The notes under the pieces are model-generated. The model was not told the DNA's origin, did not search any database, and worked only from the letters and a program-made list of their open reading frames with translations. DNA of 35,576 nt from a virus. The translations under genes were made by a program, and so were the position numbers. Position 1 is the first letter of the stretch; every line of letters begins with the position of its first letter. Positions 2,017 through 34,790 of the stretch are shown here, piece after piece. The stretch spans positions 1 through 35,576 of the IMG/VR virus record IMGVR_UViG_3300042540_000307; one strand, written 5' to 3'.

Positions 2017-2065
2017 CGTTTCGTCTCCCGGTTCGCGTCCGTCAGGTCTCATTTGCCTGACGCCC

Positions 2066-2094: not shown

Positions 2095-2151
2095 CAGCCC
2101 TCCACAAAAAGATTCTTGTGGGGCGTTTTCGCCGGGGAAAACGGGGTTTCC

Positions 2152-4949: not shown

Positions 4950-5012
4950 GAAACGCCAACGAACCGGGCACGGCGCGGAGCTGCTGCGGGGAAAGGATGA
5001 ACCCGCTGCCTC

Positions 5013-15567: not shown

Positions 15568-15760
15568 GTCGTCCTCGTTTGCGTGGCGTGGCGTCGGCCG
15601 TCTCGGCCTCGTGCTCTATGGCCGCCGTCTCGATCTCGGTCTGTCGGTCCTCGACGGCCAGGCCGCGCTTGATCCAGTCGCGGGCCATGCCGTCGGGCAC
15701 GTCTGGCAACACCTGCCCGCGTCGGTAGACGCGGAACGACTGCACCATTCTTATTTTCAT
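15524..15760 (-). CDS. Small hypothetical protein (78 aa)
   Basis: A 78-aa protein starting MKIRMVQSFRVYRRGQVLPD; DGMARDWIKRGLAVED suggests a short helical adaptor motif common in small phage head genes. The C-terminal half is charged and low in complexity (ETADATPRKRGRRAVPKPDS). The start at 15760 overlaps the previous stop (ATGA, 15757-15760), whereas the longer form from 15859 would run into the preceding gene. Family uncertain, but its placement next to the connector is typical of such short proteins. Confidence 0.65.
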   Translation of the reverse strand: MKIRMVQSFRVYRRGQVLPDVPDGMARDWIKRGLAVEDRQTEIETAAIEHEAETADATPRKRGRRAVPKPDSPDSPSR

Positions 15761-16344
15761 GATTGCGGCACACTCCATGCAGAGTCGGGCTTTTTGCCCG
15801 TGTTGCAGTATTCGGTCGCCCACTGAAAGACGGGCTTTGCCAAGTCCTTGCCGGGCCACGTCACCATGAACTCGCCGTGGCCTAGCACAACGCGAGGCGA
15901 GACGTAAATGCGATTGCCGCCGCCTTCTCGGAAGTTCTTCCAGGCGTAGATGTCGGCATCCAATCTGCCGTCATTCCACGAACCATCGGGGCCGGGTTTG
16001 CCGCAGAACCACGGTTTCGGCGTCCGCCTGAGAGCGGCTGTCGAGATGATGGTGCAGCCGAAGTGGGCCGAGTCCACTTCCTGCACGGGCTCGGCAAACC
16101 ACGACATCGGCAGCGTCGTCTTCTCGTGGGCCTCCGGGTTGCCGAGCGTGCCCTTGAGCGTCAGCATCGGGCGGCCGTCCTCACGCTTGGTCTGGAGCCC
16201 GGTGATGGCGTCGCACTGAAAGGCGAGCGCTAGAGAAAACAGATGCTCTAGGTCTTCCTTGGAAAAGAAGGTGTCGTAATCAATCGTGAGCAGGTACTCG
16301 CACTTGTCGATGAACTGCTCAAAGACCCGCTCCATGCACTGGTC
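15757..16344 (-). CDS. Glycosyltransferase-like protein, 3' segment (residues 52-246 of the joined protein)
   Basis: The C-terminal 195 residues of a GT-A-like protein. The segment begins DQCMERVFEQFI and carries LLTIDYDTFFSKEDLEHLF, whose DYD fits the DxD nucleotide-sugar and metal site, then LDADIYAWKNFREGGG and VVLGHGEF. It continues exactly from the 51-codon segment 16396-16548 after removal of the 51-nt hairpin element (16345-16395): the junction reads TGAFW|DQCMERV, a common theme in this family. Alone, this part would have to start at ATG 16335, lacking the N-terminal beta strand and nucleotide-binding loop. No ribosome-binding site precedes 16335. Substrate unknown. Confidence 0.75.
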   Translation of the reverse strand, partial: DQCMERVFEQFIDKCEYLLTIDYDTFFSKEDLEHLFSLALAFQCDAITGLQTKREDGRPMLTLKGTLGNPEAHEKTTLPMSWFAEPVQEVDSAHFGCTIISTAALRRTPKPWFCGKPGPDGSWNDGRLDADIYAWKNFREGGGNRIYVSPRVVLGHGEFMVTWPGKDLAKPVFQWATEYCNTGKKPDSAWSVPQS

Positions 16345-16395
16345 GCAGTTGGTTCTAGGCTTGAGCCCCCCGGTTATTGGCCGAGGGGCTCAAGC
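16345..16395 (-). mobile_element. 51-nt hairpin intervening element (copy 1), in the glycosyltransferase-like gene
   Basis: On the minus strand: 15-nt arm GCTTGAGCCCCTCGG, 7-nt loop CCAATAA, 15-nt arm CCGGGGGGCTCAAGC, 14-nt tail CTAGAACCAACTGC. The arms pair over all 15 positions with a single G-U wobble at position 12. It interrupts TTC TGG^GAC CAG. The element is 51 nt, in frame, but its second codon is TGA. Exact removal joins TGAFW to DQCMERV. It matches copy 2 (21801-21850) in architecture, in the first four bases, in GCCCCT and in the TCTGG^GAC context. Confidence 0.85.
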
Positions 16396-16548
16396 CCAGA
16401 ATGCGCCGGTCACCTTTGTGGGGCGAATCCCGAGAGGCATGAGGGCCTGAGCCCACGTGAAGAACGCATCGTTAAAACCCAAGCGAGGCATACTAAAAAC
16501 TGCCTCTACTCGGATGTCTACGGACGTGTCGCCAACCTTGACGAGCAT
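16390..16548 (-). CDS. Glycosyltransferase-like protein, 5' segment ending in the hairpin element
   Basis: ATG at 16548 with AGGA 7 nt upstream. Encodes 51 residues starting MLVKVGDTSVDIRVEAVF, then SMPRLGFNDAFFTWAQALMP and PTKVTGAFW, one more Ala, then a TGA inside the hairpin element. VFSMPRLGFND and TGAFW are the usual N-terminal motifs of this GT-A-like family, so the fragment is not a separate gene. Joined to 15757-16344 it gives a 246-aa protein. The gene begins directly behind the terminator (16559-16601). Confidence 0.75.
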   Translation of the reverse strand: MLVKVGDTSVDIRVEAVFSMPRLGFNDAFFTWAQALMPLGIRPTKVTGAFWA

Positions 16549-16558
16549 TGGTAGTTCC

Positions 16559-16601
16559 TAAAAAGGAAACGGCAGGCAGAGCGATGTGCTCTACCTGCCG
16601 T
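16559..16601 (-). terminator. Rho-independent terminator/attenuator after the head-gene cluster
   Basis: A 14-bp stem on the minus strand: ACGGCAGGTAGAGC, loop ACATC, GCTCTGCCTGCCGT, followed by TTCCTTTTTA. The one imperfect position is a G-U pair on the minus-strand transcript but an A-C mismatch on the other, so the orientation is clear. It follows the head protein ending at 16626 and lies directly before the ribosome-binding site of the next gene, so downstream connector and tail genes depend on partial readthrough. Confidence 0.85.
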
Positions 16602-16625
16602 CCAATGTCGTCAGGCTGTCAAGCG

Positions 16626-17066
16626 TCAGCCGGCCGTGTTGACCCGCACGCCCTTCGTGGTGGCGTCGTAGGGGCCTTCCTCGGCGCGAGCCAGCCGAGC
16701 CGCGATCACCACCGTGTTGTCGGTGGACGGGCTGGTGGCGACCGCCAGGTAACGCTTCTTGCCACGGAGATCCACCTCGATCCGGCTCACCGTCATCGTC
16801 GTGGTGACGGTCTGGCCGGCGTAGGCCGCCGGGGCGAGCGTGCCGGTAAACCCGGTCACAGTCTCGGTCACGGCGTTCGACGCATCGCCCTGGCGAAGCG
16901 TCAGCGTCTGGGCCACGCTCGAGGTAGAAACCTGCGAGGCGTAGATCACGTCGATGGACGCATAGTCGAAGCCCAGCGTGTCGAGCGTCAGGGTGTTGGT
17001 CTGGCTGGACGTGTAGACCGAGCTCTTGCCCGACACCACGCTCCGGGTAGCTGCTACTGGAATCAT
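16626..17066 (-). CDS. Head-module structural protein (146 aa)
   Basis: A 146-aa Thr/Val-rich protein directly behind the major capsid gene (MIPVAATRSVVSGKSSVYTS, then RLARAEEGPYDATTKGVRVN). Position suggests a capsid decoration or minor head protein. AGGAGACCCTGACAG precedes the ATG. No family recognised. The strong terminator downstream implies it is the last gene of a highly transcribed head segment. Confidence 0.7.
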   Translation of the reverse strand: MIPVAATRSVVSGKSSVYTSSQTNTLTLDTLGFDYASIDVIYASQVSTSSVAQTLTLRQGDASNAVTETVTGFTGTLAPAAYAGQTVTTTMTVSRIEVDLRGKKRYLAVATSPSTDNTVVIAARLARAEEGPYDATTKGVRVNTAG

Positions 17067-17095
17067 CTGTCAGGGTCTCCTAGAGAGAGTGGTAA

Positions 17096-18421
17096 TCAGG
17101 CGTTTGCAGAGTGTGTACGCAGGGCAACAACCGGGCCAACTTCGCTGGTCGAGCCAAGGCTGTGGAAGTTCGCCGTAGCCCTCACAACACCGGAAACAAG
17201 CGTCTGGTCGAGCTCCACGAACCGCTCCTGGCTCACCCGCAGCTGGTAGCCCTGGCGAAGCCCGAGGGCACCAGCCATGGCGAGATCGCCGAAGAGGCAC
17301 TTGACCTTTGACAAGTCCGAACCCAGCGTGCTGTTCATCGGGTGGACCAGCACGACCGGATACCCGAGGAACGTCAGGCCGAAGCCCTGGGCCACGGACA
17401 CCGAACCGCCCTGGGCCAGGTCAAGCCGCTGCATCGAAGCGTGGTAGCCGGCCGGCGAGATGTACCAGCGGGCGCCCGGCAGGGCGTAGCGGGGCAGCTT
17501 CGCCATGGCCGACAGGAAGTCTTCCTTGTCGAGCGTCTCGAAGGCACCATTGTTGGTGGCCGCCGTGACGAGCGACGCCGAGTAGGCCGCGTCGGTCAGC
17601 TTGACCGTCACGCCGTAGTGGCCGCCGTAGGTGCTGGTCCCGTCGCCGATGAACACCGCTTCGTCAAGAGCCTTGGCGATAGCCAGCGAGTGCTCGGTGG
17701 CGATCAGGTCTGCAACGCCAACGCCATCGGCGAAGAGCTCGTTGGAAACCTTGGTGGCCACGCCGAACTTCTGGGCGACCAGCTGCACCTGCGTGCCCGT
17801 CATGTCGCTGTAAGAAAACTCGGCGTTTTCACCCATCCACGCACCCGAAACGCCGCTGATCCGCTTCGGGATCGACAGCACGTCCGACGACATGTTGAAG
17901 TTCTGAAGGGCCGTCGGAGCCACGCCGTAGGTCTCAACGTTGCGGATGATCGTGCTGGACAGTTCATCCGGCACGCTGAACCCGCCGAGCGAGTTGACGC
18001 CGCCGACCATCGTGCGGGCCTCGACGCCGTGGTCATGGCACCACCGCTTGGCCTCGGAATCGCCGGCAAACGTGGCCTGCAGCCACCGGCCGACGCGGTA
18101 GGCGTCCTCGTGCGAGCGGAACGCCTTCAGCGTCCGGCCGTCACGGACCGCCTCAATGCGGACCGCCTTGGGCTCGTCTGCACGCACCTCGGGGGCCGGG
18201 CTGCAACGCTCGGCGACGCTGCGGAGATTCTTGACGCTCTCGGCCACCTTCGACTCAAAGTCGATGGACGCGGAGAGGGACTTGGCCTTCTCGGTCAGGC
18301 CGGCGAGCTCAAGGTTGCGGGCGTCGATGTCCGCCTTGTTGTCGGTGTCGAGAGCCGTGAGCGCCTCAATGCGAGTCGCGACCTCGGTGGCCTCGTTGCG
18401 GAGCGTGGAAAGCCGGTCCAT
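17096..18421 (-). CDS. Major capsid protein, HK97 fold
   Basis: A 441-aa HK97-type capsid protein. The first about 80 residues are a coiled-coil delta/scaffold domain (RNEATEVATRIEALTALDTD, then LEKAKSL-like helices) that the protease normally removes, followed by the fold itself (VGGVNSLGGFSVPDELSSTI, GTSTYGGHYG, RWYISPAGYHASM and LGYPVVLVHPMN). The ATG at 18421 is preferred over the TTG at 18436 because GGAG lies about 9 nt upstream of 18421. Located after the protease as in HK97. Confidence 0.93.
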   Translation of the reverse strand: MDRLSTLRNEATEVATRIEALTALDTDNKADIDARNLELAGLTEKAKSLSASIDFESKVAESVKNLRSVAERCSPAPEVRADEPKAVRIEAVRDGRTLKAFRSHEDAYRVGRWLQATFAGDSEAKRWCHDHGVEARTMVGGVNSLGGFSVPDELSSTIIRNVETYGVAPTALQNFNMSSDVLSIPKRISGVSGAWMGENAEFSYSDMTGTQVQLVAQKFGVATKVSNELFADGVGVADLIATEHSLAIAKALDEAVFIGDGTSTYGGHYGVTVKLTDAAYSASLVTAATNNGAFETLDKEDFLSAMAKLPRYALPGARWYISPAGYHASMQRLDLAQGGSVSVAQGFGLTFLGYPVVLVHPMNSTLGSDLSKVKCLFGDLAMAGALGLRQGYQLRVSQERFVELDQTLVSGVVRATANFHSLGSTSEVGPVVALRTHSANA

Positions 18422-18466
18422 GCGTGTGATCTCCAAGGCGTGATTGCCGTGGAGTCCACCATCGCA

Positions 18467-18637
18467 TCAGGGCCGTGGTGCCTTGCAGTACCGCACTTCG
18501 GAAACTGTTGTTTTGACAAACGCCACCGCACGAGCACCGCACTTCGGGCAACGCAGATACCGCTGCCGCTCGTCACCGCATGGACGGCTGGAACGGCACC
18601 GGAGTTTTTCGCCGCACGTACAGCGGGGCTCAGACAT
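18467..18637 (-). CDS. Mini zinc-ribbon protein (56 aa) between protease and capsid
   Basis: The ATG at 18637 overlaps the protease end by 8 nt. The 56-aa product has CTCGEKLRC near the N-terminus and YLRCPKCGARAVAF, with PCGDERQR in between, so up to eight cysteines make one or two zinc knuckles. Length and position are those of small head-module proteins, and coding overlap argues it is real, but no family is recognised. Confidence 0.55.
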   Translation of the reverse strand: MSEPRCTCGEKLRCRSSRPCGDERQRYLRCPKCGARAVAFVKTTVSEVRYCKAPRP

Positions 18638-19271
18638 TTCGCATCCGCAGGAGAGCGGCCCAAGCGGCGGCGACGCCCCGCAGAGCCGAACGCGAACAGT
18701 CCGCCTGGGCCGCCGGCTCCTCGGTCTGTGACGCGAGCCACGCTTCGTAGGAACGCATGGCGACGCTGGCGCTGGTCTGCGGGTACGCGGGCACCAGCAC
18801 CGGGCCCACGTCGTAGAGTCCAGACACCTCGCGGATCTGGCGGACGGCCTTGCCGTCCTCGCCCGTGCGGAAGGATTCACCGCTCTTGTCCACGGTGAAC
18901 GCGAACGACGAGCCACGCACGTCACGCCGCTGGATGAGCTCGAGCACGTCGCCACGGCTCACGGGCGGCGTCACCACGTACCGCAGCCCCTTGTCGTCGC
19001 TGGAGAGCTCCAGCGTGCCAGACGATGTGCGGCCCAGCACGATGTTGCTGTCGTGGTTGAAGAGTGCCACCACGTCCTGCCGGCCGCGCTGGCGGCCGAG
19101 AATCTTGTCGAACGCACCGGGCAGAATCTCTTCCTTGAACCCGCCAAGGTCGAGTGACAGCCGGTTGTAGACAGCGGCGTAGCCCACGATGGACGTGCGG
19201 CCGTCTGCACGGGTTTCCACGACTAGGTCGTGGTCATCCTCAAAGGCGAAGTCGCGGCGTTCAATTTCCAT
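18630..19271 (-). CDS. HK97-type prohead protease (U35)
   Basis: A 213-aa serine protease that cleaves capsid delta domains. The N-terminal part IERRDFAFE and VGYAAVYNRLSLDLGGFKEE, then LFNHDSNIVLGR with the catalytic His, and RGSSFAFTV with the Ser, follow the U35 order. The ATG at 19271 is preferred as AGGAGGATTCGACAG precedes it; the 251-aa extension is out of character. Overlaps the portal end by 11 nt. Confidence 0.92.
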   Translation of the reverse strand: MEIERRDFAFEDDHDLVVETRADGRTSIVGYAAVYNRLSLDLGGFKEEILPGAFDKILGRQRGRQDVVALFNHDSNIVLGRTSSGTLELSSDDKGLRYVVTPPVSRGDVLELIQRRDVRGSSFAFTVDKSGESFRTGEDGKAVRQIREVSGLYDVGPVLVPAYPQTSASVAMRSYEAWLASQTEEPAAQADCSRSALRGVAAAWAALLRMRNV

Positions 19272-20784
19272 CTGTCGAATCCTCCTGGGCAGTCGTGCTG
19301 TCTTCGGCATCGTCTTCTGGCGTGCCGTCCATCGGCTCGCCTGGCGAGTCTTGCGGCATCGGCTGTGCATCCGCCGCCACCGCACCGGACACCGTGCCGG
19401 AAATGATTTGATCGACAGACTGCGGGCTCATTGTCGGGAACGCCGACAGGATCACAGCCTTTGCTCCAGACGGCGTCAACAAGCCAGCCGCCAGGTTCTT
19501 GACGATCTCAATGAGCGACGTGACTTGCGCCCCATTGAGTGCCTGTTGTTGCAAGTTCTCCCCAGTGTTGGATGCAGCCATCTTCTCGTCTTCTGTCTGC
19601 ACGACTTTGTCTAGCGTGGTCATGTTGAGCTGCACAAACTGGGCGTCGCCACGCTCTCCAAGCGGATTAAAGTTTTCCAGCTCTCGAATCTCGTTAATGC
19701 TCATCCAGCCGTTCTGGAGAGCGGAAACAAAGTAGGCCGACCGGCTGGCGTGATCGCCACGCAGTAGGCCGCTCACGTTGTGCTCGGCGAAGTACGTCTC
19801 GTCCTCGCCTTCCGCGAGCAGGTCGCGGGAGATGGCGGCCTCCCACCGCTTGAGATGCGGCAGAAGGCAGTACTGAACCATCTCAACGCCCTGCACTTCG
19901 ATATTGCTGTAGGTGCTTCGCGTCAGGTCTTGGATCATGTGCGGCGGCACGCGAAACGCCCGGCAGATTTCGATGACCTGATACTGCCGCGTTTCAAGGA
20001 ACTGGGCCGCCTCGTTGCTCTGCGACAGCTCGTGAGCCTTCACGCCCGCCGGCAACACCGCCGTGCGGTGAGCCCGATCCGGGCCACGGTGCATCCGCTC
20101 CCACGACTCGCGAAGCCGCTCGGCCGCCTCAACTGGCACCGGGTTCTCTGACTCAAGCACGATGCCAGGCCGGGCACCGTTGCCGAAGTAGGTCGCACCG
20201 TGGGCCTCCAGCGCTTGGGCCAGCCCGATGGCGTTGGCGAAGAGCCGATAGCTCGGGATCGGATGAATGCCGTCGTCCGTGGTGAACCGCAGGGCGAAGA
20301 TTTGCTCTTGGCGGTAGACCGTCTGCCGGCCATCCGGCTCACGGTAGATGTACCGCAGACGCCCGTTTTCCAGCCGCTCGACTTCCATGCGGCTCGGATG
20401 CAGCGGCCACAACTCCGACACAGGCCCGCGAGCACCGGCACGAATCTCGGCGTAGCTTGCGCCGTAATGCAGGTAGAGCCCCGTCATCCAATCGCGGAAT
20501 TCCTGCGCCGTCTGCCACGGATTCGGCTGCATGTGCAAGATGCGGTAAAGCGGATGCTCTGGCACCTTGCGCTTGCCGCCGTTGGGCTGCCGCTCATAGA
20601 GATGCAGGGGCAGGCTTGAGACGCTGTCAGAGATGACTCTGATGCACGCCGTGTAGGCCGAGCAGGCCATCGACGTGTCTGCAGTCACCCGCACGCCTGA
20701 CGCAGTGCGACCGCCACCGACGCCGGCCCAATCAATGCCACGCAGCTCGTGCATGCGGAAGTCGGCGGTGGCCGTGTCGCTCAT
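19261..20784 (-). CDS. Portal protein, HK97 family
   Basis: A 507-aa HK97-type portal: SVSSLPLHLYERQPNGGKRK, HPLYRILHMQPNPWQTAQEF, LLPHLKRWEAAISRDLL and the stem/wing pattern EICRAFRVPPHMIQDLTRST. The start ATG at 20784 overlaps the stop of the terminase 3' segment (ATGA, 20781-20784). The last 60 residues are acidic and Gln/Ser-rich. Twelve copies would form the DNA channel and terminase docking ring. Confidence 0.95.
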   Translation of the reverse strand: MSDTATADFRMHELRGIDWAGVGGGRTASGVRVTADTSMACSAYTACIRVISDSVSSLPLHLYERQPNGGKRKVPEHPLYRILHMQPNPWQTAQEFRDWMTGLYLHYGASYAEIRAGARGPVSELWPLHPSRMEVERLENGRLRYIYREPDGRQTVYRQEQIFALRFTTDDGIHPIPSYRLFANAIGLAQALEAHGATYFGNGARPGIVLESENPVPVEAAERLRESWERMHRGPDRAHRTAVLPAGVKAHELSQSNEAAQFLETRQYQVIEICRAFRVPPHMIQDLTRSTYSNIEVQGVEMVQYCLLPHLKRWEAAISRDLLAEGEDETYFAEHNVSGLLRGDHASRSAYFVSALQNGWMSINEIRELENFNPLGERGDAQFVQLNMTTLDKVVQTEDEKMAASNTGENLQQQALNGAQVTSLIEIVKNLAAGLLTPSGAKAVILSAFPTMSPQSVDQIISGTVSGAVAADAQPMPQDSPGEPMDGTPEDDAEDSTTAQEDSTDGN

Positions 20785-21800
20785 AGGGTGATGATGTCCC
20801 AGTTCTGTTCCGGCGGCTTCGCAGTTGCCACGGCGTGCAGGCCGAGAGCCATCACGAGCGAGACGATGCCGTCGATGCGTTCCGTGCTCTTCGCCTTGCT
20901 CGGTTTGATGTTGCCCTGGTGGTCGCTCTGTACTGCCACGTTCGCAGCCATCCAAGACAGAACCGGATGATTCGCATGCCGGATTCGCTCGGACAGCACA
21001 TAATTTTCAAGGGCGCGGCTAGGGCTCGACATTGAGCCGTAGCCCTGTCCAAATCCTGTCACATTCACGCCCTCGCCTTGCAGTTGCGTGGCGAGCTGCG
21101 TCGCGTTCCAGCGGTCGATACCCACCTGCCGAATGTTGAACTTCTGCGAGAGTTCCACGATGTCGCGGCGAATCACGTCGTAGTCGGTGACGTTGCCATC
21201 CGTGGACCGGATGAACCCGTCACGAATCCAGCCGACGTAGTCCACCTTGTCTCGCAGCGTCCGCTCGGCGGCGTTTGCCTGCGGCACCCAGAAGTACGGC
21301 AGCACGTCGAAGGTGCCGTCTTCCGCTTGGCTCACCATCACGAAGGCCGAGAGGTCGAAGGTGCTTGCCAAGTCCAGCCCTGCGTACCACTCACGCTGCT
21401 CGAGGTCGCCGGCCAGCGGCTTGCCGCACTTGGCCCAGTTATCTGGAGACAACCAGCGAACGTCCTGGGTGGTCCAGACATTGAGCCTGTATCGCAAAAA
21501 GCTATTGAGCTTAGACGGTGACTGCTCAGCCTCTCTGGCATCGGCGGCAAATGACTCCACCGTGATCGTCTCGCCCAGCGAAGGGTTGGCTTTGTGCCAC
21601 GTCGCCTCGCTCTTCCAATCGTCCTCGGGCGAGGCGGCGTAGATGCACCCAAAGAAGGCAGGGTCCACCGCTGGATCAGCGATGCACCGCTCGGCGTAAG
21701 CGTGTTGTTCCCAACAGATTGACTTGCGGTCGTAGCCGGCCGTGGTGATCGACAAGAGGAGTGGCGATCGTCTGGCTGCCCCACCGTACCTTAGTGCGTC
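20781..21800 (-). CDS. terL: Terminase large subunit, 3' segment (nuclease domain)
   Basis: 339 residues that continue the ATPase segment after exact removal of the 50-nt element 21801-21850: LW|DALRYGGAARRSPLLLSITTAG. The nuclease part has YAGLDLASTFDLSAFV and VGIDRWNATQLATQL, consistent with RNase H-like metal sites of P27-type phage terminases. It lies in a different frame from the 5' segment because the element is 50 nt. An isolated start (for example at 21755) would lack the ALRYGGAARR motif just after the Walker B region, so it is not a gene of its own. Coupled to portal by ATGA. Confidence 0.88.
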   Translation of the reverse strand, partial: DALRYGGAARRSPLLLSITTAGYDRKSICWEQHAYAERCIADPAVDPAFFGCIYAASPEDDWKSEATWHKANPSLGETITVESFAADAREAEQSPSKLNSFLRYRLNVWTTQDVRWLSPDNWAKCGKPLAGDLEQREWYAGLDLASTFDLSAFVMVSQAEDGTFDVLPYFWVPQANAAERTLRDKVDYVGWIRDGFIRSTDGNVTDYDVIRRDIVELSQKFNIRQVGIDRWNATQLATQLQGEGVNVTGFGQGYGSMSSPSRALENYVLSERIRHANHPVLSWMAANVAVQSDHQGNIKPSKAKSTERIDGIVSLVMALGLHAVATAKPPEQNWDIITL

Positions 21801-21850
21801 GCGTGTTTGTCCGGGCCTCCGCCCCCGGCCTCTCAGCCAGGGGCGAAAGC
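21801..21850 (-). mobile_element. 50-nt hairpin intervening element (copy 2), in the large terminase gene
   Basis: Minus strand: 15-nt arm GCTTTCGCCCCTGGC, 6-nt loop TGAGAG, 15-nt arm GCCGGGGGCGGAGGC, 14-nt tail CCGGACAAACACGC. All 15 pairs form; three (positions 3, 5, 12) are G-U, so the pairing is perfect only in the minus-strand RNA. It sits in CTC TGG^GAC GCA, just past Walker B (LLFDELHAQ). The frame meets TGA inside the element and is shifted after it. The terminase is restored only if all 50 nt are removed or skipped. Confidence 0.88.
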
Positions 21851-22435
21851 CCAGAGGCGGCGGTCCCTTTGTGCGTGGAGTTCATCGAAGAGCAGGGCGT
21901 GGATGTTGAGTCCTTCGGCCCGGAACGCATCAGCCGACAGCACCCGATAGAACGAGTTGCTTGCCTTGTGGACGATGGTCTTCCGCGAGTCGATTACCTC
22001 GAGATGCTTCGACAACGCAGGCGAGGCCCGCACCATCGAGGCCGCTTCGCGGTAGATGATGCCAGCTTGCTCGCGGTCGCAGGCAGCACCGTAGACCTCG
22101 GCACCGGGCTCCGAGTCAAACGCCGTCATGTAGAGCGCGATCCCGGCGAGCGTCGTGCTCTTTCCCTGCTTTTTTGGCAACTCGATGTAACCGACGCGAT
22201 GCCTGCGTAGTCCGTCAGGGTTCAGCCGGCCAAACAACTCACGCAGGACGTGGTGCTGCCACGGCAGGAGCGTGAACGGTTTGCCCGCGTTCTGCCCCTT
22301 GCTGTGGCGCAGGATCTTCTCAAAGAAGTGAACGACGCGCTCGTATTTGGCCTGCCCATCTTTGCAAAGGTCAGGCACCGTGGAGCTTGAAGAAGTCTTC
22401 GACTTCGTCGCTCGGCTTTTCTTCCTTGCCGCCAA
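21833..22435 (-). CDS. terL: Terminase large subunit, 5' segment (ATPase domain), ending in the hairpin element
   Basis: Codons 1-195 of TerL, then five element-encoded codons and a TGA. ELPKKQGKSTTLAGIAL is the Walker A region and IHALLFDELHAQ the Walker B with its acidic residues; PWQHHVLRELFG and CDREQAGIIYREAASMV are ATPase-domain segments. Start at TTG 22435 overlaps the small terminase; GTG 22378 is an alternative. The 5' part alone would lack the nuclease and part of the ATPase coupling motif, so it cannot package DNA. Joined with 20781-21800 it makes about 534 aa, the usual TerL length. Confidence 0.88.
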   Translation of the reverse strand: MAARKKSRATKSKTSSSSTVPDLCKDGQAKYERVVHFFEKILRHSKGQNAGKPFTLLPWQHHVLRELFGRLNPDGLRRHRVGYIELPKKQGKSTTLAGIALYMTAFDSEPGAEVYGAACDREQAGIIYREAASMVRASPALSKHLEVIDSRKTIVHKASNSFYRVLSADAFRAEGLNIHALLFDELHAQRDRRLWAFAPG

Positions 22436-23026: not shown

Positions 23027-23371
23027 TTAGCACGCATCGTGGTGCGTCTGCGTGGACGTTTGGCGTTGCTCGCTCATCGTCTTTCGTCCGTGACAACGGA
23101 TGCACAACGTCTGTCCGTTGTTCACGTCGTACCGTTCACCACCTTGAGCGATAGGCACGACGTGGTCCGCCTGGGCCTCGCGGGGGCCCGTACACACGCG
23201 ACCGCACGACCTACACTGCCATGCGTCACGGGTAAGCACTGCCTGTCGCCACGCCTTGTGTGCCTTGTCGCAGTACCCACGGGCTGCCGCGTTGAGCCTT
23301 GCAGTCTCGTCTCGCCTAGGGCGTGACGTTCTCAGACGGGGGGGCCTATGTGCTGGTATGCGTTGCGGCAT
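23027..23371 (-). CDS. HNH endonuclease next to terminase
   Basis: A 114-aa HNH nuclease. Two zinc-binding CxxC pairs (CRSCGRVC, then CIRCHGRK), a catalytic ADHVVPIAQGG (first His) and DVNNGQTLC with the conserved Asn. Typical of the HNH proteins found before phage terminase genes, where they assist cos cleavage in HK97-like systems. The first 25 residues are Arg/Pro-rich. The 185-base gap between this gene and TerS (22842-23026) has no convincing gene; the packaging site may lie there. Confidence 0.85.
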   Translation of the reverse strand: MPQRIPAHRPPRLRTSRPRRDETARLNAAARGYCDKAHKAWRQAVLTRDAWQCRSCGRVCTGPREAQADHVVPIAQGGERYDVNNGQTLCIRCHGRKTMSEQRQTSTQTHHDAC

Positions 23372-23798: not shown

Positions 23799-24833
23799 TT
23801 ACGCCGACGCGGCCCGTGTCGTGCAGTTCTCCCGCACGAGCGCCTCGCGTCTGGCGAGCTCCAGATCGGCGTCTACCATCATCGCCACGAGATCGGAGAA
23901 CGACGTGCGTGGCTCCCAGCCCAAGATGCGCTTCGCGTTCCCGGCATAGCCAATCAGCACGTCCACCTCGGTCGGCCGTTCGTACCGCTGGTCATGCTCG
24001 ACGAAGTCCCGGTAGTCGAGGTCGAGCCGCCCGAATGCCAGTTCGCAAATCTCCCGCACCGTGTGCGTCTCGCCCGTTGCCACGACGAGGTCTGGCGGGC
24101 TGCCGATGGGATGCTGGAGCATCAGCCACATGGCCTCGACATAGTCGCCCGCGAAGCCCCAATCGCGGCTGGCGTCAAGGTTGCCGAGGTAGAGCTTCGA
24201 CTGCAGCCCGTGCTTGATGCGGCCTGCGGCCCGCGTGATCTTGCGGGTCACGAAGGTCTCGCCGCGCCGCGGGCTTTCGTGATTGAACAGGATGCCGCAC
24301 CGTGCGAACAGCCCATAGGCTTCGCGGTAGTTCACCGTCGTCCAGTGTGCGAAAGCCTTGGCGCACGCATACGGTGAGCGTGGACGAAACGGCGACTCCT
24401 CGCGCAACATCGGCCTGTCGCCAGGGAACAACGCCTGCGGCTCGATGCCGCCATACATCTCGCTGCTCGACGCCTGGTAGAACCGCGCCTGCGGTGCGTG
24501 GTCGCGAATCGCCTCCAGCATCCGCAGAGCGCCGATCCCGGTGGCGTCGGCCGTGTAGACCGGCTGGTCGAACGACACGCGGACGTGGCTTTGTGCCGCG
24601 AGGTTGTAGACCTCGTGCGGCTCGACCTGCCGCACGATGCGAGCCATCGCACCGCCGTCGCACACGTCGCCGTGGTGCAGGTGGACCGCATCGAAGATGT
24701 GGTCCACGCGACCGGTGTTGAACGTCGAAGCCCGGCGAATGATGCCGTGGACTTCGTAGCCTTTGGCGAGCAGGAACTCGGCGAGGTATGAGCCGTCCTG
24801 CCCGGTGATGCCGGTGATGAGGGCGCGGGTCAT
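23799..24833 (-). CDS. gmd: GDP-mannose 4,6-dehydratase
   Basis: A 344-aa short-chain dehydrogenase that turns GDP-mannose into GDP-4-keto-6-deoxy-mannose, precursor of fucose, rhamnose and perosamine sugars. The NAD(P) site [16 protein letters not shown] is at the N-terminus, [15 protein letters not shown] follows, SSSEMYGG carries the catalytic Ser/Glu, and [17 protein letters not shown] the catalytic Yxxx[16 protein letters not shown] and [19 protein letters not shown] are family signatures. Start at ATG 24833. Together with the glycosyltransferase block it suggests modification of surface glycans. Confidence 0.95.
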
Positions 24834-24840
24834 GCGGAAA

Positions 24841-25191
24841 TTATTCCACAACACGCAATTCAACGGTTTCCATGCTGTGTTCCCAACTCCAAGACTGTCC
24901 GATAGGCGATGTGACGTTGGACGCTTGCAGGTCGCCTCCAATGCCATGACGCCAATACATGACCCCAGGAATTGACGGCAACGCATCGGCCATTGCGGCG
25001 ATCATTTCTTGCGTGGCCGCCGTGTACATGGCGAAGTGCGTTGGCGAGCCCGACCCGGTTCGCGATAGCGGGACCGTGAAAGCGTTGCCGTCGTAGTTTG
25101 GTCCGCTTGGGTTGATTTGGCGTGCGGCGGCGTCGGCAGCAGACAACGATGCGGCCGGAACGATGATGGCGAGCCGGTAGTCGAAACTCAC
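24841..25191 (-). CDS. Hypothetical protein next to the lectin gene (116 aa)
   Basis: The GTG at 25191 overlaps the LamG stop as GTGA with GGGG 7 nt upstream, so I prefer it to the ATG at 25203. The product ([20 protein letters not shown], then [20 protein letters not shown]) is soluble. A tail-fibre-associated or chaperone role is possible from its coupling to the lectin-domain gene. No family recognised. Confidence 0.6.
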
Positions 25192-25973
25192 GACACGCCC
25201 CATTTTTTTTGAAGGTAGCCCAACACGGTCGCCTGGTCTGTTGCTGACAGAGAGCGGTTGTATTGCAGGATTTCCATGACCGTGCCTTTGTACGGGCTGG
25301 AGTTTGCCGGGGAACCGCTCAAGAAACGGCTGCTGATGCCAAATCCAGTGCTCTGGTCTGATGCCGTGTATGACGTGTCCGACACGCTGCTCGTCGCGCC
25401 ATTCGCCCGCGTGTAGTGAATAGCGTTATTGGTCGTTGCAAAATTCAAAATGATGACGTTGTTTTGTCCTTCAACCGTTGCTGGCGGGTTCAGTATGAGA
25501 ATGTTTCCGCCAGCGCCGCCCGAGTAAGAGTTAGTGACGTTTAGCACAAGCCCGCCCGTCGTTGTGTCGTCATTTCCGCTTGCCGGGAAAAACGTAAACA
25601 CAACCCGATTGGTGATGTTGCCACGATTGAGAGCGACAAACAGCGTCTGGCCGGTGAGGTTGATCCTGGCCGTTGTGTTGATGATGCCGTCATCCACGCC
25701 GTCAAACGATAACGCGGACTTGCCGGAATAGTGATTCGCCACGAACGACGGCGCTGTTGAATCTGCCGTTGTCCTAATGACGTGAAACCCGTTCCCGCTC
25801 TTGTCGCCCCAATATTTCACAGGGCCGTTGGCCGTGACGGTCCCAACGCCGTCGCTTGTCGGACCAAGCGTTGACGTGTCAGAGGCGTCTAGCCACAACG
25901 ACAGACCGCTGATGCTTTTGGGATTGAACCCACTCGCCCTCGGCCGCATCAGTCGATTGTTCATCGGTGCCAT
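25188..25973 (-). CDS. LamG/concanavalin-type lectin-domain protein
   Basis: A 261-aa protein with the usual LamG-like pattern: ISGLSLWLDASDTSTLG, VKYWGDKSGNGFHV, ALSFDGVDDGI, then GTVMEILQYNRSLSATDQAT and YLQKKWG. Such domains bind glycans, and in phages they serve as receptor-binding tail fibre domains or fibre decorations. MAPMNNRLMRPRASGFNPKS may be the attachment tail. GAGGAGAAG lies upstream of the ATG at 25973. Located away from the main tail cluster, it may be an accessory receptor-binding protein. Confidence 0.85.
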   Translation of the reverse strand: MAPMNNRLMRPRASGFNPKSISGLSLWLDASDTSTLGPTSDGVGTVTANGPVKYWGDKSGNGFHVIRTTADSTAPSFVANHYSGKSALSFDGVDDGIINTTARINLTGQTLFVALNRGNITNRVVFTFFPASGNDDTTTGGLVLNVTNSYSGGAGGNILILNPPATVEGQNNVIILNFATTNNAIHYTRANGATSSVSDTSYTASDQSTGFGISSRFLSGSPANSSPYKGTVMEILQYNRSLSATDQATVLGYLQKKWGVS

Positions 25974-25976
25974 GCG

Positions 25977-26225
25977 TCACTTCTCCTCTGGCTTCTGCCC
26001 GGCTTTCGGTTGTAACGCATAGAGCAAGCGCGTCTGCTCGCTCACCGCCTGGGCGATCTCGACCTGCGTCTGGGCGAGCTTCTCTAGGAACTGCGTGTGC
26101 GCCTTCACAAGCGGTAGCAAAACGTCCTGGCGACCCACGTAGAGGCACGCTAACGCCACCAGAGCTGCGAATCCATGCTCTCGGAGCACGCCGAGTAGCG
26201 TCGTCTGCACCGTCTCGCTCGTCAT
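25977..26225 (-). CDS. Single-TM small membrane protein (82 aa), possible holin-type
   Basis: One N-terminal transmembrane helix (HGFAALVALACLYVGRQDVL) followed by an amphipathic helix with Gln/Glu (HTQFLEKLAQTQVEIAQAV) and a charged tail. Length and layout are compatible with a holin or spanin-like membrane protein, and it is coupled by ATGA to the next membrane gene. Without homologs this stays tentative. Confidence 0.6.
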   Translation of the reverse strand: MTSETVQTTLLGVLREHGFAALVALACLYVGRQDVLLPLVKAHTQFLEKLAQTQVEIAQAVSEQTRLLYALQPKAGQKPEEK

Positions 26226-26569
26226 CGCTGCATCTCCCGCTGCCACCCGGCCAACATGATCCGGTTGAAGTTCCTATCGAGCCACCACTTCACGAGCCAC
26301 TGAATCACCGCGACGAGCACCGCCGTGGCGATGATTGACAGCAGCACGAAGCCGTACTCTTGCCCCGAGCGGCGCGTTTTCACGCGCTCCACAAGAGCCG
26401 ACTCGTAGGCTCTCAGGTCGTCGTCGCTCTGGCTGGTGACGAGTGATTCGTTGTCCCACTCGGCCACGGCGTCCTCGAGCATCTGACGCACGGTGTCACG
26501 GCCCACGAGCCGCTTGCGAAGCGGCGGCAGGTCGGCCCAGCACTGGTCGGTGAGGTCGTCGAAGGTCAT
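26222..26569 (-). CDS. Membrane protein with C-terminal TM helix (115 aa)
   Basis: Soluble N-terminal part (TFDDLTDQCWADLPPLRKRL, then RDTVRQMLEDAVAEWDNESL) and one TM helix near the end (FVLLSIIATAVLVAVIQWLV) with a WWLDRNFNR flank. The start ATG at 26569 overlaps the next gene (ATGA). Together with 25977-26225 and 26566-26865 it makes a membrane cluster next to the cysteine peptidase, so lysis or entry is possible. No family recognised. Confidence 0.6.
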   Translation of the reverse strand: MTFDDLTDQCWADLPPLRKRLVGRDTVRQMLEDAVAEWDNESLVTSQSDDDLRAYESALVERVKTRRSGQEYGFVLLSIIATAVLVAVIQWLVKWWLDRNFNRIMLAGWQREMQR

Positions 26570-26865
26570 CGGTTCACTCCGCAGGTGCCGGTCGTGCAGG
26601 TGGGGGCCGTCTTTGGCTTCTTGCCGGTGCCCTTGCAATCTGGGCACGTAATGCGAATGCCGGCGTTATCGCCGAGAACGCCGCGGCCGTCGCATCGCTC
26701 GCACACGTCGCTGGGGGCGGGCGTTGGCGGCAGCCCTTGGCGGGCCTGCACGATGCACCGGCTGGCTTCGCAAGCCAGGTCGGCCGTAATGGACGTGTCG
26801 CCGCGGGGAAGAGACGCAACGCAGCCAACGAACGCCACGGCGAAACAGACGAGCCAACGGTTCAC
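26566..26865 (-). CDS. Lipoprotein with DnaJ-type zinc finger (99 aa)
   Basis: MNRWLVCFAVAFVGCVASLP looks like a lipoprotein signal (lipobox FVGC). The remainder contains CERCDGRGVLGD and CPDCKGTGKK, the CxxCxGxG repeats of the DnaJ cysteine-rich zinc finger, then CTTGTC. No J domain. An exported zinc-finger lipoprotein is unusual, and its role unknown. It is coupled by ATGA to the cysteine peptidase, suggesting a joint function at the cell envelope. Confidence 0.7.
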   Translation of the reverse strand: MNRWLVCFAVAFVGCVASLPRGDTSITADLACEASRCIVQARQGLPPTPAPSDVCERCDGRGVLGDNAGIRITCPDCKGTGKKPKTAPTCTTGTCGVNR

Positions 26866-27776
26866 AAAACGCCTCCGGTCCAGTTGGGAAGCGTGCGGGG
26901 CTCAAAGCCCGAATAGCCAGACAAGGCAAACGAGTCCTCGCCCGAGAGCATGTCGGTGCAGGTGTCGGCGTCCACCCAGCCGGCCGACTTCTGGAACTGC
27001 GGCGGCAGGGCCGGGTCAACGTCGCCGTCGTAGCAGTCGCCCCACGAATTTGCACAAAGCAACGCCGGGCGTGGCGACCATCGCACCGCACAAAAATTCA
27101 TCGCGTGTGCCCATGTGCCCATCGGCGCGAGATGCCCGCCGTCTCGGAGCGTCATGGAGAAGCCACGCATCGAACACACGGCCACGGGGTATCCGTTCTG
27201 GATCGCTTTGGCGGCATCATCAAACGACGTGACAAGCGCCACGGCGGAAACTTTGTGCTTCGCCGCAAACGGCTCGAGCTCGTCTGGCACGCCGTCGCGG
27301 CCCCATTCCTTCTCGCGGGTGCCACTGTTGTCGGTGAACCGCTGGCCGGCGTAGTCGATGCCGTAGTGCAGCGTGCCGTAGTTGGCGACTGCTTTCGCTG
27401 CAGCCGCTCCATAGGAACCGTCGCCGCCTAAGTTGGGCCGCCCGCGAACCTCAACCCGGCTGAATCCGTAGACGCTGGCTTCGAGGACCCGGCCGCCGTA
27501 GACCTCGTGCTCTGCCCGCAGGTGGATGTCGCATGCCGCGAGGATGTCGCACGAGAGCGCCCAGGCCCAGCCAACGCAGCTACCAATCTTCTGGCTGCCA
27601 CGCTTCCAGCTTGGATCGCACCGCAGAAGGTACTCGCCCAAGAACACGTCGCGTGACGCGTCGAGCTCAAGGTCGGGCCCTGCCGCCGCCAGCGTGGGCT
27701 TCGGCAGCGAGGCTAGAAAACGCTCAGTGCCCTTGCGGTCGGGCACGTACCCCATGAGCGGCAGGAAGTCGGCCAT
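26862..27776 (-). CDS. Papain-like (C1) cysteine peptidase
   Basis: A 304-aa peptidase. QKIGSCVGWAWALSCDIL carries the oxyanion Gln and the catalytic Cys of the papain fold; GTWAHAMNFCAV gives the catalytic His and ALLCANSWGDCYDG the Asn. No signal peptide. It is preceded and followed by membrane and lipoprotein genes, and it could be a lysis enzyme, a virion protease or a host-directed effector. It is relatively short for C1A but complete in its catalytic residues. RBS AGGGTG. Confidence 0.85.
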   Translation of the reverse strand: MADFLPLMGYVPDRKGTERFLASLPKPTLAAAGPDLELDASRDVFLGEYLLRCDPSWKRGSQKIGSCVGWAWALSCDILAACDIHLRAEHEVYGGRVLEASVYGFSRVEVRGRPNLGGDGSYGAAAAKAVANYGTLHYGIDYAGQRFTDNSGTREKEWGRDGVPDELEPFAAKHKVSAVALVTSFDDAAKAIQNGYPVAVCSMRGFSMTLRDGGHLAPMGTWAHAMNFCAVRWSPRPALLCANSWGDCYDGDVDPALPPQFQKSAGWVDADTCTDMLSGEDSFALSGYSGFEPRTLPNWTGGVL

Positions 27777-27779
27777 GCG

Positions 27780-28400
27780 TCACCCTGCGTTGACGCCGGC
27801 CCATGCAATCGCCCGGCACAATTCGGCGTAGCGGGCCCGCAGATCCTTCGTCACGGGAACCTCGCCGGTGCCGAGCACCTGGGCAAACGCGGCCTCAACG
27901 GCTTCACGCAGCCCCGGATAGACGCCAGGGGAGTTGCCGCCGATGCGACGCCAACCGATCTCGACGGCAAGAACGGTAAAAAGCCGCAGCGATCGCGTGT
28001 CGGTAAAAACGACTTCAGTGCTGACGCCGTCGCCAAGAGCGACGATCGCGGCCTTGTTCCACAGTTCCGCCCAGAGCATCCGGTCGCTCATCGACACGGA
28101 CTTCATCGCGGCGGCGACCGGCGTTACAACCCGTTGCATGGCGTCACTCGGCGTAACAACTTCGACGGGCCGAACTGCCGGAACCGACAGCGACGGCATC
28201 GGCACCTTGCCCCACGCCGCCGCCACGATCAGCCCAGCCGCCGCCGTCCGCGTCAGCCCGGCCTTGTGCCGCTGGGCGGCTTCGACGGCGAGCAGGGCGG
28301 CACGGATGGCGGCCTGGGCCGCCACACTGAGGTACGGCGAGCCGACGAGAGCAACTGCTGCGATGACGGCTGCGGTGCGTAGTGCAAATTCGACGCTCAC
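27780..28400 (-). CDS. Hypothetical membrane-associated protein (206 aa)
   Basis: The GTG at 28400 overlaps the previous stop (GTGA, 28397-28400). The N-terminus has two hydrophobic segments (ALRTAAVIAAVALVGSPYL and RTAAAGLIVAAAWGKV). The remainder (MSDRMLWAELWNKAAIVALG, then TDTRSLRLFTVLAVEIGWRR) is helical and Trp-rich. No family recognised; membrane location is inferred. Position before the C1 peptidase suggests a joint role. Confidence 0.6.
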   Translation of the reverse strand: MSVEFALRTAAVIAAVALVGSPYLSVAAQAAIRAALLAVEAAQRHKAGLTRTAAAGLIVAAAWGKVPMPSLSVPAVRPVEVVTPSDAMQRVVTPVAAAMKSVSMSDRMLWAELWNKAAIVALGDGVSTEVVFTDTRSLRLFTVLAVEIGWRRIGGNSPGVYPGLREAVEAAFAQVLGTGEVPVTKDLRARYAELCRAIAWAGVNAG

Positions 28401-28702
28401 CCCTTGAGCCCCTCGACCTTCTGCACGATCCAGCGAACGAACACCTCGCCCTGCTCGGTCTTCAACATCTCGGTCAAATGCTTCACCAGTTCGTCGTCGA
28501 GCGTGGCGTCGGTGCGGGCGGCAAGCCACTCGGCCGCTTCGTACACGACGAGCGACTTCGCGTAGGGATCGCCAACCGAGACGAACCGCTGGGCGAACGT
28601 CAGCACCGGCAGCCAGGACTGCAGGAGCGCGATCTGTTGCCAGATGTTGAGCTTGTTTCCGTACTCGGCCTGCTCGGCCGGCGTCATCTCGAAGGCGGGC
28701 AT
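28397..28702 (-). CDS. Hypothetical protein (101 aa)
   Basis: The start ATG at 28702 is preferred (AGGAG 7 nt upstream) over 28735. Mainly helical (TPAEQAEYGNKLNIWQQIAL, then LVVYEAAEWLAARTDATLDD and ELVKHLTEMLKTEQGEVFVR). Coupled to the next gene by GTGA. No family recognised. Confidence 0.6.
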   Translation of the reverse strand: MPAFEMTPAEQAEYGNKLNIWQQIALLQSWLPVLTFAQRFVSVGDPYAKSLVVYEAAEWLAARTDATLDDELVKHLTEMLKTEQGEVFVRWIVQKVEGLKG

Positions 28703-28762
28703 GGCACTACTCCTGGGGATACTTCGGTGTATCACCCGGCGGGGTAATCCATGCAGTAACGC

Positions 28763-29017
28763 CTACGGCGACTCGTCCTCCGTGTCATCTAGGACGCTGG
28801 GAAAATTGATAGTGTCGTTCAACCAATCGTAGACCATGTGCCAGGTATCTTCCGCCTCTTCGTGCGACTCCTTCCGCTCGATCACGTAAGGCTGTTTGAA
28901 CGATTCCTCGCGCCCTGCAATCAGCTTCCCCGCGCCGTCGGTCATGTAGACGTAGGCGTACTGCCGGCCGAACTCGACCACGATCCGGCGCTCCACGTAG
29001 TCGGGCAGTCTTGGCAT
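28763..29017 (-). CDS. Small acidic hypothetical protein (84 aa)
   Basis: A highly charged protein (RRIVVEFGRQYAYVYMTDGA, then ESHEEAEDTWHMVYDWLNDT) ending in an acidic tail (DDTEDESP). It starts 7 nt after the stop of the preceding gene. No family recognised. Confidence 0.55.
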   Translation of the reverse strand: MPRLPDYVERRIVVEFGRQYAYVYMTDGAGKLIAGREESFKQPYVIERKESHEEAEDTWHMVYDWLNDTINFPSVLDDTEDESP

Positions 29018-29023
29018 CGCCGT

Positions 29024-29425
29024 TCACAGTTCGTCCGCGTCTTCGTCCAGCCCGGCAAGTTCGGCCGTGATCTCAATTCTCGCCAGCGTGAACCCGGTCG
29101 GCTTGTTCGCCTGCCGTTCCGCTCGCGTCACCTCGTCCCACGTCACCTGCACGCACGTCACGCGCTGGGCCACACGCGGGGCGAGGTCGAGGCTGTTCTC
29201 GCTCGCGGCCAACTCGGCCGCGTCGGGGTCCAGCATCCGTTCGTCGCGGCTGGGCTTGTAGCGGAGCCGGCGGTCGTTGCGAGGCGGGAATCCCCAGACC
29301 TCGCGGAGGCGAATCAGTTGGTGGCTCGTGACCGTCCAGTAGGTCGCTATCGCCTGGATCGGCAGATAGGAGTCCCACTGCAGCCGCAGCGTCACGCGGT
29401 CAATGATCGAGGTGTTGCCGGCCAT
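29024..29425 (-). CDS. Hypothetical protein (133 aa), possible HTH
   Basis: The stretch IQAIATYWTVTSHQLIRLRE, with VWGFPPRNDRRLRYKP following, resembles a helix-turn-helix with a recognition helix; an acidic C-terminal end (LAGLDEDADEL) follows. It overlaps the glycosyltransferase end by 26 nt. Possibly a DNA-binding regulator; unproven. Confidence 0.6.
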   Translation of the reverse strand: MAGNTSIIDRVTLRLQWDSYLPIQAIATYWTVTSHQLIRLREVWGFPPRNDRRLRYKPSRDERMLDPDAAELAASENSLDLAPRVAQRVTCVQVTWDEVTRAERQANKPTGFTLARIEITAELAGLDEDADEL

Positions 29426-30284
29426 GTTGCGGGACCCAGAAGCTCACGACCCTGGACGATGGATTGAAACCGAACCGCCCTCTCGTCTCGGGATGCTCGG
29501 CGATCGACCTATGCAGGGTGCAATGCTCGCACGTTTCGCCCGTGTAGACGCCACGCAGATAGGCGTCAGCACGGTACAGAGCGAGCTGCCCGAAGGCCGA
29601 GTTCACCTGCACCGGCGGTGCGCCGACCACCGGCCGCATGAGGTGGAACCAATCGAGCGGCGTGCGATGCCGCCAGCCGAACCACCGGAAAGCGAAGCCG
29701 TCGTAGTGGGCGGGAATAACCGTGCCGTCTGCGGTTCGCATCTCGCACCACGAATAGGAGCCAAGCCCCCACCAATCGCTCCGCTCCATGTGGGCCACGC
29801 TGGTGAGCAGACCGTCAATGCTCCAGCCGCCCCAGCTATCGGAGTCCACGACCGCGACCAAGTCCACCGGCTCGCCGTGTCGCACCCAGGTCTGGCAGGC
29901 AGCGCGGTACTCCGCGAGCGCGACCGTTCGCTCTTGGGAGATCGTGTAGTTGAGATGCGGGCGATCGTAGGTATTGAGACTGACACACCGCTGCCGTTGG
30001 TCAGACCACTCTTTCAGCACCTCCTTCGTGTCATCGACGCTGTCGTTCTCTGCGGCGAACGCGGTCCACGACTTGAAGCACGCGCCAGTTCGCTCGATGA
30101 GATCAAGCGTCTGCCGCAGCCACGGCTGGGAGTTTCTGCAGATCATCACGATGGCGATAGACAGGCCAGCCGCCACCTCGCGCCCATACTTCACCGCTTC
30201 CGCGTAGTCCTCCGCGAACTCGGGATCGGGCGGCAGCAGCACGTCGGGCCGGTGGGCCTCAATCTCGTCAAGCGTGATCTGCAC
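29400..30284 (-). CDS. Glycosyltransferase-like protein (294 aa)
   Basis: A GT-A type enzyme: AAGLSIAIVMICRNSQPWLR with RNSQPW is the usual N-terminal motif of family-2-like transferases, LVAVVDSDSWGGWSIDG holds the DxD (DSD), and SDWWGLGSYSWCEMRTADG and YRADAYLRGVYTGETCEHCT follow. GTG start at 30284 with GGAGGGACGATC before it. Substrate unknown. It is followed by coupled hypothetical genes and preceded by another GT, so likely part of a glycan cassette. Confidence 0.75.
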   Translation of the reverse strand: MQITLDEIEAHRPDVLLPPDPEFAEDYAEAVKYGREVAAGLSIAIVMICRNSQPWLRQTLDLIERTGACFKSWTAFAAENDSVDDTKEVLKEWSDQRQRCVSLNTYDRPHLNYTISQERTVALAEYRAACQTWVRHGEPVDLVAVVDSDSWGGWSIDGLLTSVAHMERSDWWGLGSYSWCEMRTADGTVIPAHYDGFAFRWFGWRHRTPLDWFHLMRPVVGAPPVQVNSAFGQLALYRADAYLRGVYTGETCEHCTLHRSIAEHPETRGRFGFNPSSRVVSFWVPQHGRQHLDH

Positions 30285-30984
30285 GATCGTCCCTCCGCAC
30301 TTCCCGCCACGCCGTCGGCTGTTCCCCGTTGGTGATGTCATCCGCCGTGACCGCCACGCGGTGATTCGCCGTGTGCCACTCGGGACTCGGCACATGCGTG
30401 CCCTTCTCAGCGCCGATGTTCTGGATTCGGCTCACCGTGGGGAATGCTTCGTATCGCCCGGCTCGCAGCGCGTGGTTCACGATCACGTCCCACGAGGTTG
30501 CGTCGTCACGCACCCATCCCATGTGCAGGCCCAGCCATCGGTCCCGCCAGGTGCCCCAGCCCCACGGCGTGAACCACCGACGCAGGCCGCACTCTCCGAG
30601 GCATCCGTTCGACACCCGCTGGTATCCGCTCACGTTCATGACGGCCGGATCGTCGCGGTAGTGGTCTCGCGCCCAGGCGAACCAGCGCAAGGCATCGACG
30701 CACGGCACCGTGTCGTCTTCGAGGTGGAGGTGGAACTCGCTGCCCATCGTCTCGAAGCCGTAGCCGAACGACGAGCGGATCGCCCGGTTGCATCCCGCCC
30801 GCTCCGAGTACGTCACCGAATCGAATTCGTAGCGGTTCGCAATCGCCGCGGACTCGGCGGCATCGTCCGAGGGATCGATCAACACCAGCACGTCGCAGTC
30901 GCGGATGCCGTCGCACGCCCGCAGAGCCGCGAGCGTCTGCGTCAGGTAGGCCGGGCGGTTGTAGGCCGACACCGTGATGTTCAC
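30268..30984 (-). CDS. Glycosyltransferase-like protein (238 aa)
   Basis: Begins MNITVSAYNRPAYLTQTLAA, the GT-A start; FHLHLEDDTVPCVDALRWFA gives an EDD site of the kind seen in GT13-like families, and WGTWRDRWLGLH is similar. GTG start overlaps the radical SAM stop (GTGA, 30981-30984). With the adjacent GTs and radical SAM enzyme it forms a surface-sugar block. Acceptor unknown. Confidence 0.75.
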   Translation of the reverse strand: MNITVSAYNRPAYLTQTLAALRACDGIRDCDVLVLIDPSDDAAESAAIANRYEFDSVTYSERAGCNRAIRSSFGYGFETMGSEFHLHLEDDTVPCVDALRWFAWARDHYRDDPAVMNVSGYQRVSNGCLGECGLRRWFTPWGWGTWRDRWLGLHMGWVRDDATSWDVIVNHALRAGRYEAFPTVSRIQNIGAEKGTHVPSPEWHTANHRVAVTADDITNGEQPTAWREVRRDDRADHA

Positions 30985-34437: not shown

Positions 34438-34460
34438 GAGACGGCACAGGCTCTCGGTGG

Positions 34461-34790
34461 TCACTCGTAGCGGACGACTGCCACCCACAACCGACGCACG
34501 GGGCAGAACGCGGTGCCGATCTCGCGGACTCGGCGCGTTCCCCAGAAACATGACCGCTTCACGGCATCCGACGCAGACCGAGCCGACATACCGATGCCTT
34601 CCACCAGCCGGCCTCGTCTCGAGCAGTGCCCGAACGAACGGCTGGCGACGAGCGCCTCGGCGTGCTGCTGGGCCGAGATGTAGCCGATCTCCGTGATCGC
34701 AGCCGGCGGCTGCACCATCACGCTGGCGAGTTCCTGACCGCACGCCTGTACGGCGAGCCACGCCACGCACGCGAACAACATGCCACGCAT
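34461..34790 (-). CDS. Small exported protein (109 aa)
   Basis: The start MRGMLFACVAWLAVQACGQE is a signal peptide (a lipobox-like LAVQAC may make it a lipoprotein). The mature part ISAQQHAEALVASRSFGHCS, with Cys residues later, is of unknown function. AGGAGATTTTCCT precedes the ATG at 34790. Its C-terminal part (SDAVKRSCFWGTRRVREIGT) is basic. Confidence 0.65.
   Translation of the reverse strand: MRGMLFACVAWLAVQACGQELASVMVQPPAAITEIGYISAQQHAEALVASRSFGHCSRRGRLVEGIGMSARSASDAVKRSCFWGTRRVREIGTAFCPVRRLWVAVVRYE

Follow-up and report, generated by a model that had tools for sequence, protein, structure and literature searches.

Hairpin inserts in terminase and glycosyltransferase-like genes of environmental phages as candidates for recurrent translational bypassing

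How a phage may obtain an intact large terminase protein (TerL) from a gene that is cut in two by a hairpin is the question raised by the window, i.e. the whole stretch of DNA analysed here, an IMG/VR virus record of 35,576 bases with a G+C content of 63%, in which Pfam models identify genes for an integrase, a small terminase, a portal protein, a protease and a capsid protein.

Two interrupted genes in one phage record

The ATPase part of the TerL ends with ...FDELHAQRDRRLW, and the nuclease part restarts at DALRYGG in a different frame. In uninterrupted relatives the junction is FDELHAQRDRRLWDALRYGGAARR (also given as HAQRDRRLWDALRYGG) without a break, and as these relatives read through it, the insert can be delimited exactly (Table 1), with the borders TGG/GCTTTC...CACGC/GAC (slashes mark insertion points here and below). 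Its hairpin starts about ten codons past the Walker B motif LLFDE, and the record contains a single copy of this particular element. The initial annotation, according to which a 50-nt hairpin element splits TerL after Walker B and a TGA inside the element ends the TerL frame, was thus correct on both points.

Table 1. Features of the two interrupted genes of the window
Feature	Position	Strand	Basis or remark
TerL ATPase coding part, including putative take-off codon TGG (21853-21851)	21851..22435	-	PF03354, E 6.5e-17; junction from uninterrupted relatives
21-bp hairpin, GAGA loop, take-off codon within its base	21810..21855	-	folding
Site A element, 50-nt gap, putatively untranslated	21801..21850	-	exact 50-nt indel relative to uninterrupted relatives
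TGA stop of the upstream frame, 6th gap codon	21833..21835	-	
Putative landing triplet CGC, followed by GAC at which decoding would resume; does not match TGG	21801..21803	-	
Downstream coding part of TerL (DALRYGG... and nuclease domain)	20781..21800	-	PF20441, E 9.5e-45; purifying selection
Glycosyltransferase-like gene, part before the element, ends ...TGAFW (TGG, 16398-16396)	16396..16528	-	
Site D element, 51 nt	16345..16395	-	51-nt indel relative to 23-29 relatives
Site D TGA, second gap codon	16392-16390	-	
Site D putative landing triplet TGC	16347-16345	-	
Glycosyltransferase-like gene, part after the element (DQCMERV...)	15757..16344	-	

As minus-strand RNA the site A region (66 nt) folds with -46.0 kcal/mol (z -5.6, 0 of 200 shuffles as low), whereas the plus strand of the element reaches -30.3 (z -0.9). 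The stem is free of mismatches, contains five G-U pairs and extends past the insert boundary into the take-off codon. That the stem is good only as minus-strand RNA had been noted before and stands, but the number of G-U pairs has to be corrected from three to five; the RNA-level role inferred at that time is supported, as covariation maintains base pairs in the Walker A elements (see below).

The record contains a second element, which the initial annotation had overlooked and which interrupts the glycosyltransferase-like gene (site D, Table 1). Between the genes at 16626-17066 and 16528 there is another hairpin (16567-16603), with a 16-bp stem and a T-rich run behind it, which is probably an ordinary terminator.

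Both flanks of the inserts are under purifying selection. At site A the median dN/dS is 0.07 upstream and 0.15 downstream of the insert, with no stop in the 900 nt downstream; at the other sites tested the values are 0.02-0.31 on both flanks, and the downstream stretches examined (120-900 nt, depending on the site) are likewise free of stops. TerLs with identities as low as ~60% share the site A insert, which is represented by 16 distinct sequences. Moreover, the carrier records tested with the TerL ATPase model contain one TerL each, sometimes as two matches split by the element, i.e. the supply of TerL by another gene, which would have refuted the original proposal, is not seen on the records examined, although these may be incomplete, so that another TerL outside them cannot be ruled out entirely. 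The interrupted TerL is neither a dead gene nor an oddity.

A family of inserts at ten sites

Of 80 IMG/VR relatives of the nuclease domain, 60 are uninterrupted and 20 carry an insert at one of three places. This set was enlarged by hairpin-pattern searches and by a search with a more distant TerL; some searches demanded the hairpin core or CTGG, none demanded a reading frame, and loci were assigned to sites by conserved motifs on both flanks. The resulting family comprises 61 distinct elements at ten sites, nine of them in TerL genes and one in the glycosyltransferase-like gene (site D, GAFW/DQ). Four sites lie at Walker A, namely E (IEL/PKK), E2 (EVP/KKNG), F (PKKN/GKS) and G (PKKNG/KS), three around or after Walker B, namely C (AEGL/NIH), B (FDEL/HAQ) and A (RLW/DAL), and one in the nuclease domain, H (FLRYR/LNV). 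The elements thus crowd into the active-site motifs of TerL, the same hot spots as those of inteins. The remaining site, I (FTG/TPK), comes from a phage of 155 kb (L301) whose terminase is GpA-like; its element (380-440) has the same register, GGG as take-off codon, a length of 50 nt and the landing triplet GTA; the match to the GpA ATPase Pfam model is weak and below the cut-off, but on the basis of this locus the family may reach unrelated phages.

Several carriers contain two elements: the window (A and D), L048 (C and D) and L087, where a single TerL (4356-5545) harbours elements at C and A, so that two skips would be needed. When 217 loci were compared all against all, followed by complete or nearly complete related records, indels of the same size seen against many relatives were these hairpins, whereas other 34-75-nt indels lacked long stems and were seen against one or few relatives only. 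At the level of whole genomes, hairpin inserts of this type were found only in TerL and the glycosyltransferase-like gene. An identical inner core, GCCCCTCGGGCTTCGGCTCGGGGGGC, is present at different sites, i.e. at site B in L055 and at site C in L122, which suggests that the elements move between sites and are apparently mobile; the movement is an inference from sequence identity. Matches of element DNA to cultured phages were short and at chance level only, and no earlier description of the elements was found in the literature, with subscription papers and preprints mostly outside the search.

The virus infects bacteria, planctomycetes being the likely hosts as judged from a contig of a Phycisphaerales metagenome-assembled genome with an uninterrupted, 60%-identical TerL (L136) and from relatives of the TerL nuclease in 25 of 392 planctomycete genomes, which is no proof. 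Divergence put most of the retrieved planctomycete TerL loci beyond the reach of the motif search. One planctomycete TerL relative (L360; genome G357, C7:179074-179988) has an open frame of only 349 aa, for which the motifs used gave no cause. The window further encodes, at 582-3552 and 23799-34770, two DNA methyltransferases and a GDP-mannose dehydratase together with glycosyltransferase-like and methyltransferase genes, pointing to possible DNA and surface modification.

Gap geometry and how the gap may be overcome

The gaps are 46-52 nt long, and their lengths leave a remainder of 2, 0 and 1 on division by three in 35, 18 and 8 elements, respectively. An in-frame stop is missing from the gap in 25 of the 61 elements; otherwise the first stop is gap codon 2-9. 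As the gaps occur in all three frames, the whole gap must be skipped, and as many of them lack an in-frame stop, readthrough or simple frameshifting is insufficient. Ribosomal frameshifting and stop readthrough were rejected, since the 46-52-nt gap would remain in every case.

The elements keep a strict codon register. The GCCCC core follows exactly 6 nt past the take-off codon, a whole sense codon, in all 61 elements, and at each of the ten sites the insert is located at a codon boundary in the same codon phase. If phase were irrelevant and the sites are treated as independent insertions, one common phase would be expected with a probability of ~5e-5, with the reservation that at matched sites the repeated codon makes the exact junction ambiguous. 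Moreover, the gap ends with a triplet that encodes the same amino acid as the take-off codon in 42 of 61 elements (identical in 31), these being the majority of elements at seven of the ten sites, whereas at other offsets between -9 and +9 such a match is seen in 0-5 of 61. The matched codons are CTG, TGG, GGC/GGT/GGG, AAT, CCG and CGG, and where landing triplets vary at matched sites, the change is almost always a synonymous one at the third base (CTA, CGA, GGA, GGT, AAC).

The stems have 18-21 bp and include bases of the take-off codon in 59 of 61 elements, starting 1-7 nt upstream of the end of this codon (0 in two outliers), and the landing triplet begins 1-8 nt past the stem. Hence, the folded hairpin brings take-off and landing codons close to each other. 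In the Walker A elements five pairs exhibit two-sided changes, with 17 cells as compared to 2.8 +/- 2.7 in shuffles, and the observed values are reached by 0-2 of 500 shuffles. At site A most changes affect one side of a pair only, without loss of pairing.

Based on these observations we propose, at a probability of roughly three in four, that the insert represents a recurrent form of the programmed translational bypassing known from T4 gene 60; the proposal rests on comparison of sequences, and ribosome, transcript or protein evidence is lacking. The ribosome would translate TerL up to the take-off codon TGG and be stalled by the 18-21-bp hairpin that has this codon in its base. The peptidyl-tRNA would then leave the take-off codon and land on a triplet 1-8 nt past the folded hairpin, i.e. 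46-52 nt downstream, and decoding would restart at the next codon (GAC), yielding full-length TerL. Both the skip itself and the hop across the base of the hairpin are inferred.

The main weakness of this proposal is that the window's own two landing codons, CGC and TGC, are unlike TGG. Take-off TGG at site A faces AGA, CGC, CGA or TGA, and take-off and landing codons of L309 and L301 are also mismatched; at site D, TGG faces TGC in the window and TGG at the same place in L048. Minimal conventional pairing can reportedly suffice for landing, going by the title of one study. Since the gap-end triplet at site A specifies Arg in 15 of 16 distinct elements, it could alternatively be decoded, adding one residue. 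Re-pairing with other upstream codons (AGG, CGC, CTC) was considered for site A and rejected, as conserved residues would be deleted or part of the variants fail. A further point against bypassing is that the two codons of some matched pairs (GGC/GGA) are normally read by distinct glycine tRNAs.

The landing mismatch at site A would be irrelevant if the hairpin were cut from the mRNA and the ends joined, i.e. if it were a tiny intron, and such RNA-level excision would also fit length-tolerant removal and a conserved RNA hairpin. However, excision would put no constraint on codon phase, whereas all ten sites share one phase, and what is repeated is an entire codon that varies synonymously at its third base. 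Neither a splicing protein nor an RNA ligase was recognised among the window's open reading frames scanned with Pfam, and Rfam returned no family at the gathering score over 16200-22100; to our knowledge, the elements are too short for known self-splicing introns. We thus regard RNA excision as unlikely. Still less credit can be given to a mobile DNA hairpin that is precisely excised in part of the population, the codon repeats being 3-bp target duplications, which the CTG and TGG repeats do resemble. The identical inner cores at sites B and C suggest movement, but G-U pairs and RNA covariation, the constant codon phase and the persistence of the insert through divergence, with the gene under selection, argue against this explanation, no transposase is seen linked to an element, and the Walker A family pattern is absent from the 392 planctomycete genomes. 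It is the fixed codon phase at ten sites together with the match of take-off and landing codons that favours bypassing over excision.

Reinitiation is common in phage operons, and TTG and ATG codons exist downstream of the gap, so that ATPase and nuclease parts might be made as two proteins. This would be hard to reconcile with Walker A elements that cut the P-loop itself or with the TerL carrying two elements, and the conserved DALRYGG after the gap would not be part of a second protein initiated at the first start codon listed; a split gene is therefore quite improbable. Finally, the reading frame in the record is indeed broken, as in a dead prophage or an assembly error, but the same and related inserts recur in dozens of metagenome contigs that were assembled independently, with purifying selection acting on the genes, and the chance of either is very small. 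Of the three fates envisaged initially, i.e. bypass, excision or a dead prophage, the first is the one favoured, and the last is not supported.

Known bypass systems and possible roles

Bypassing in T4 gene 60, in which 50 nt are skipped between matched GGA codons with a stem-loop at the take-off site (PMC5009743; PMC11194080), is well proven and essentially alone among phages in the literature examined. The elements described here resemble it in the 50-nt gap, the stem-loop including the take-off codon, the joining of two frames in an essential phage gene and the matched codons, the latter at most sites only and not in the window's own two elements. In contrast to this single instance, the family has ten sites with varied codons and a landing mismatch at site A, it lacks the stop that directly follows the T4 take-off codon, and its gap is almost all hairpin, whereas the T4 gap is mostly unfolded with a small stem-loop. 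A nascent-peptide signal is a known feature of T4 gene 60. The byp elements of Magnusiomyces capitatus mitochondria are likewise numerous short inserts, over which the ribosome skips in that system, several having imperfect landing codons (PMC5009743), but they are mitochondrial and count 81 instances, whereas the elements here reside in phage genes, one or two per genome, with strict hairpin and register. Their recurrence, as compared to that of byp, extends over ten sites and two kinds of gene with cores shared between sites, the movement itself being unseen. The putative bypass of Streptomyces phage Hau3 concerns a phage terminase gene as well, but its gap is reviewed as far shorter and linked to a UUA codon, with no hairpin family described (PMC5009743).

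Mycobacteriophage TerL inteins occupy ATPase motifs, including Walker A and Walker B (PMC5050341), i.e. they crowd as the present elements do, but are translated and spliced as protein, whereas the elements have 46-52 nt and are non-coding. In T4 the gap possibly served as a defence against a homing endonuclease (PMC5009743). Shielding of TerL from homing endonucleases or inteins and limitation of TerL output are, as purposes of the elements, equal guesses and speculation. In the TerL of L351 (~440-1570, minus strand) the P-loop carries an intein-like insertion (GK/ALAIDTPIPTPDGW), preceded at a distance of a few codons by a bypass-like element; it is the only intein-like insertion among the TerLs examined, and one case cannot test shielding. 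The window itself encodes, both on the minus strand, an intein with an HNH domain in a radical-SAM/B12-binding protein (30981-33302; PF14890, PF13392, PF04055) and an HNH endonuclease directly upstream of the small terminase gene (23027-23371), of a type common in packaging modules and also a candidate homing enzyme. Such observations are compatible with shielding without putting it to the test.

It is possible, though we would rather not count on it, that the elements are mobile phage 'translational introns', i.e. portable hairpins that can be placed beside almost any codon of a conserved motif, are hopped by the ribosome across their base and persist in TerL since they destroy the sites recognised by inteins and homing endonucleases. 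If bypassing is true, dozens of natural variants at ten sites, differing in codon, length and loop, would make the rules of ribosome hopping readable by comparison, and gene callers would split essential genes in many environmental phages, while the placement in those TerL motifs that are invaded by inteins hints at why such gaps arise.
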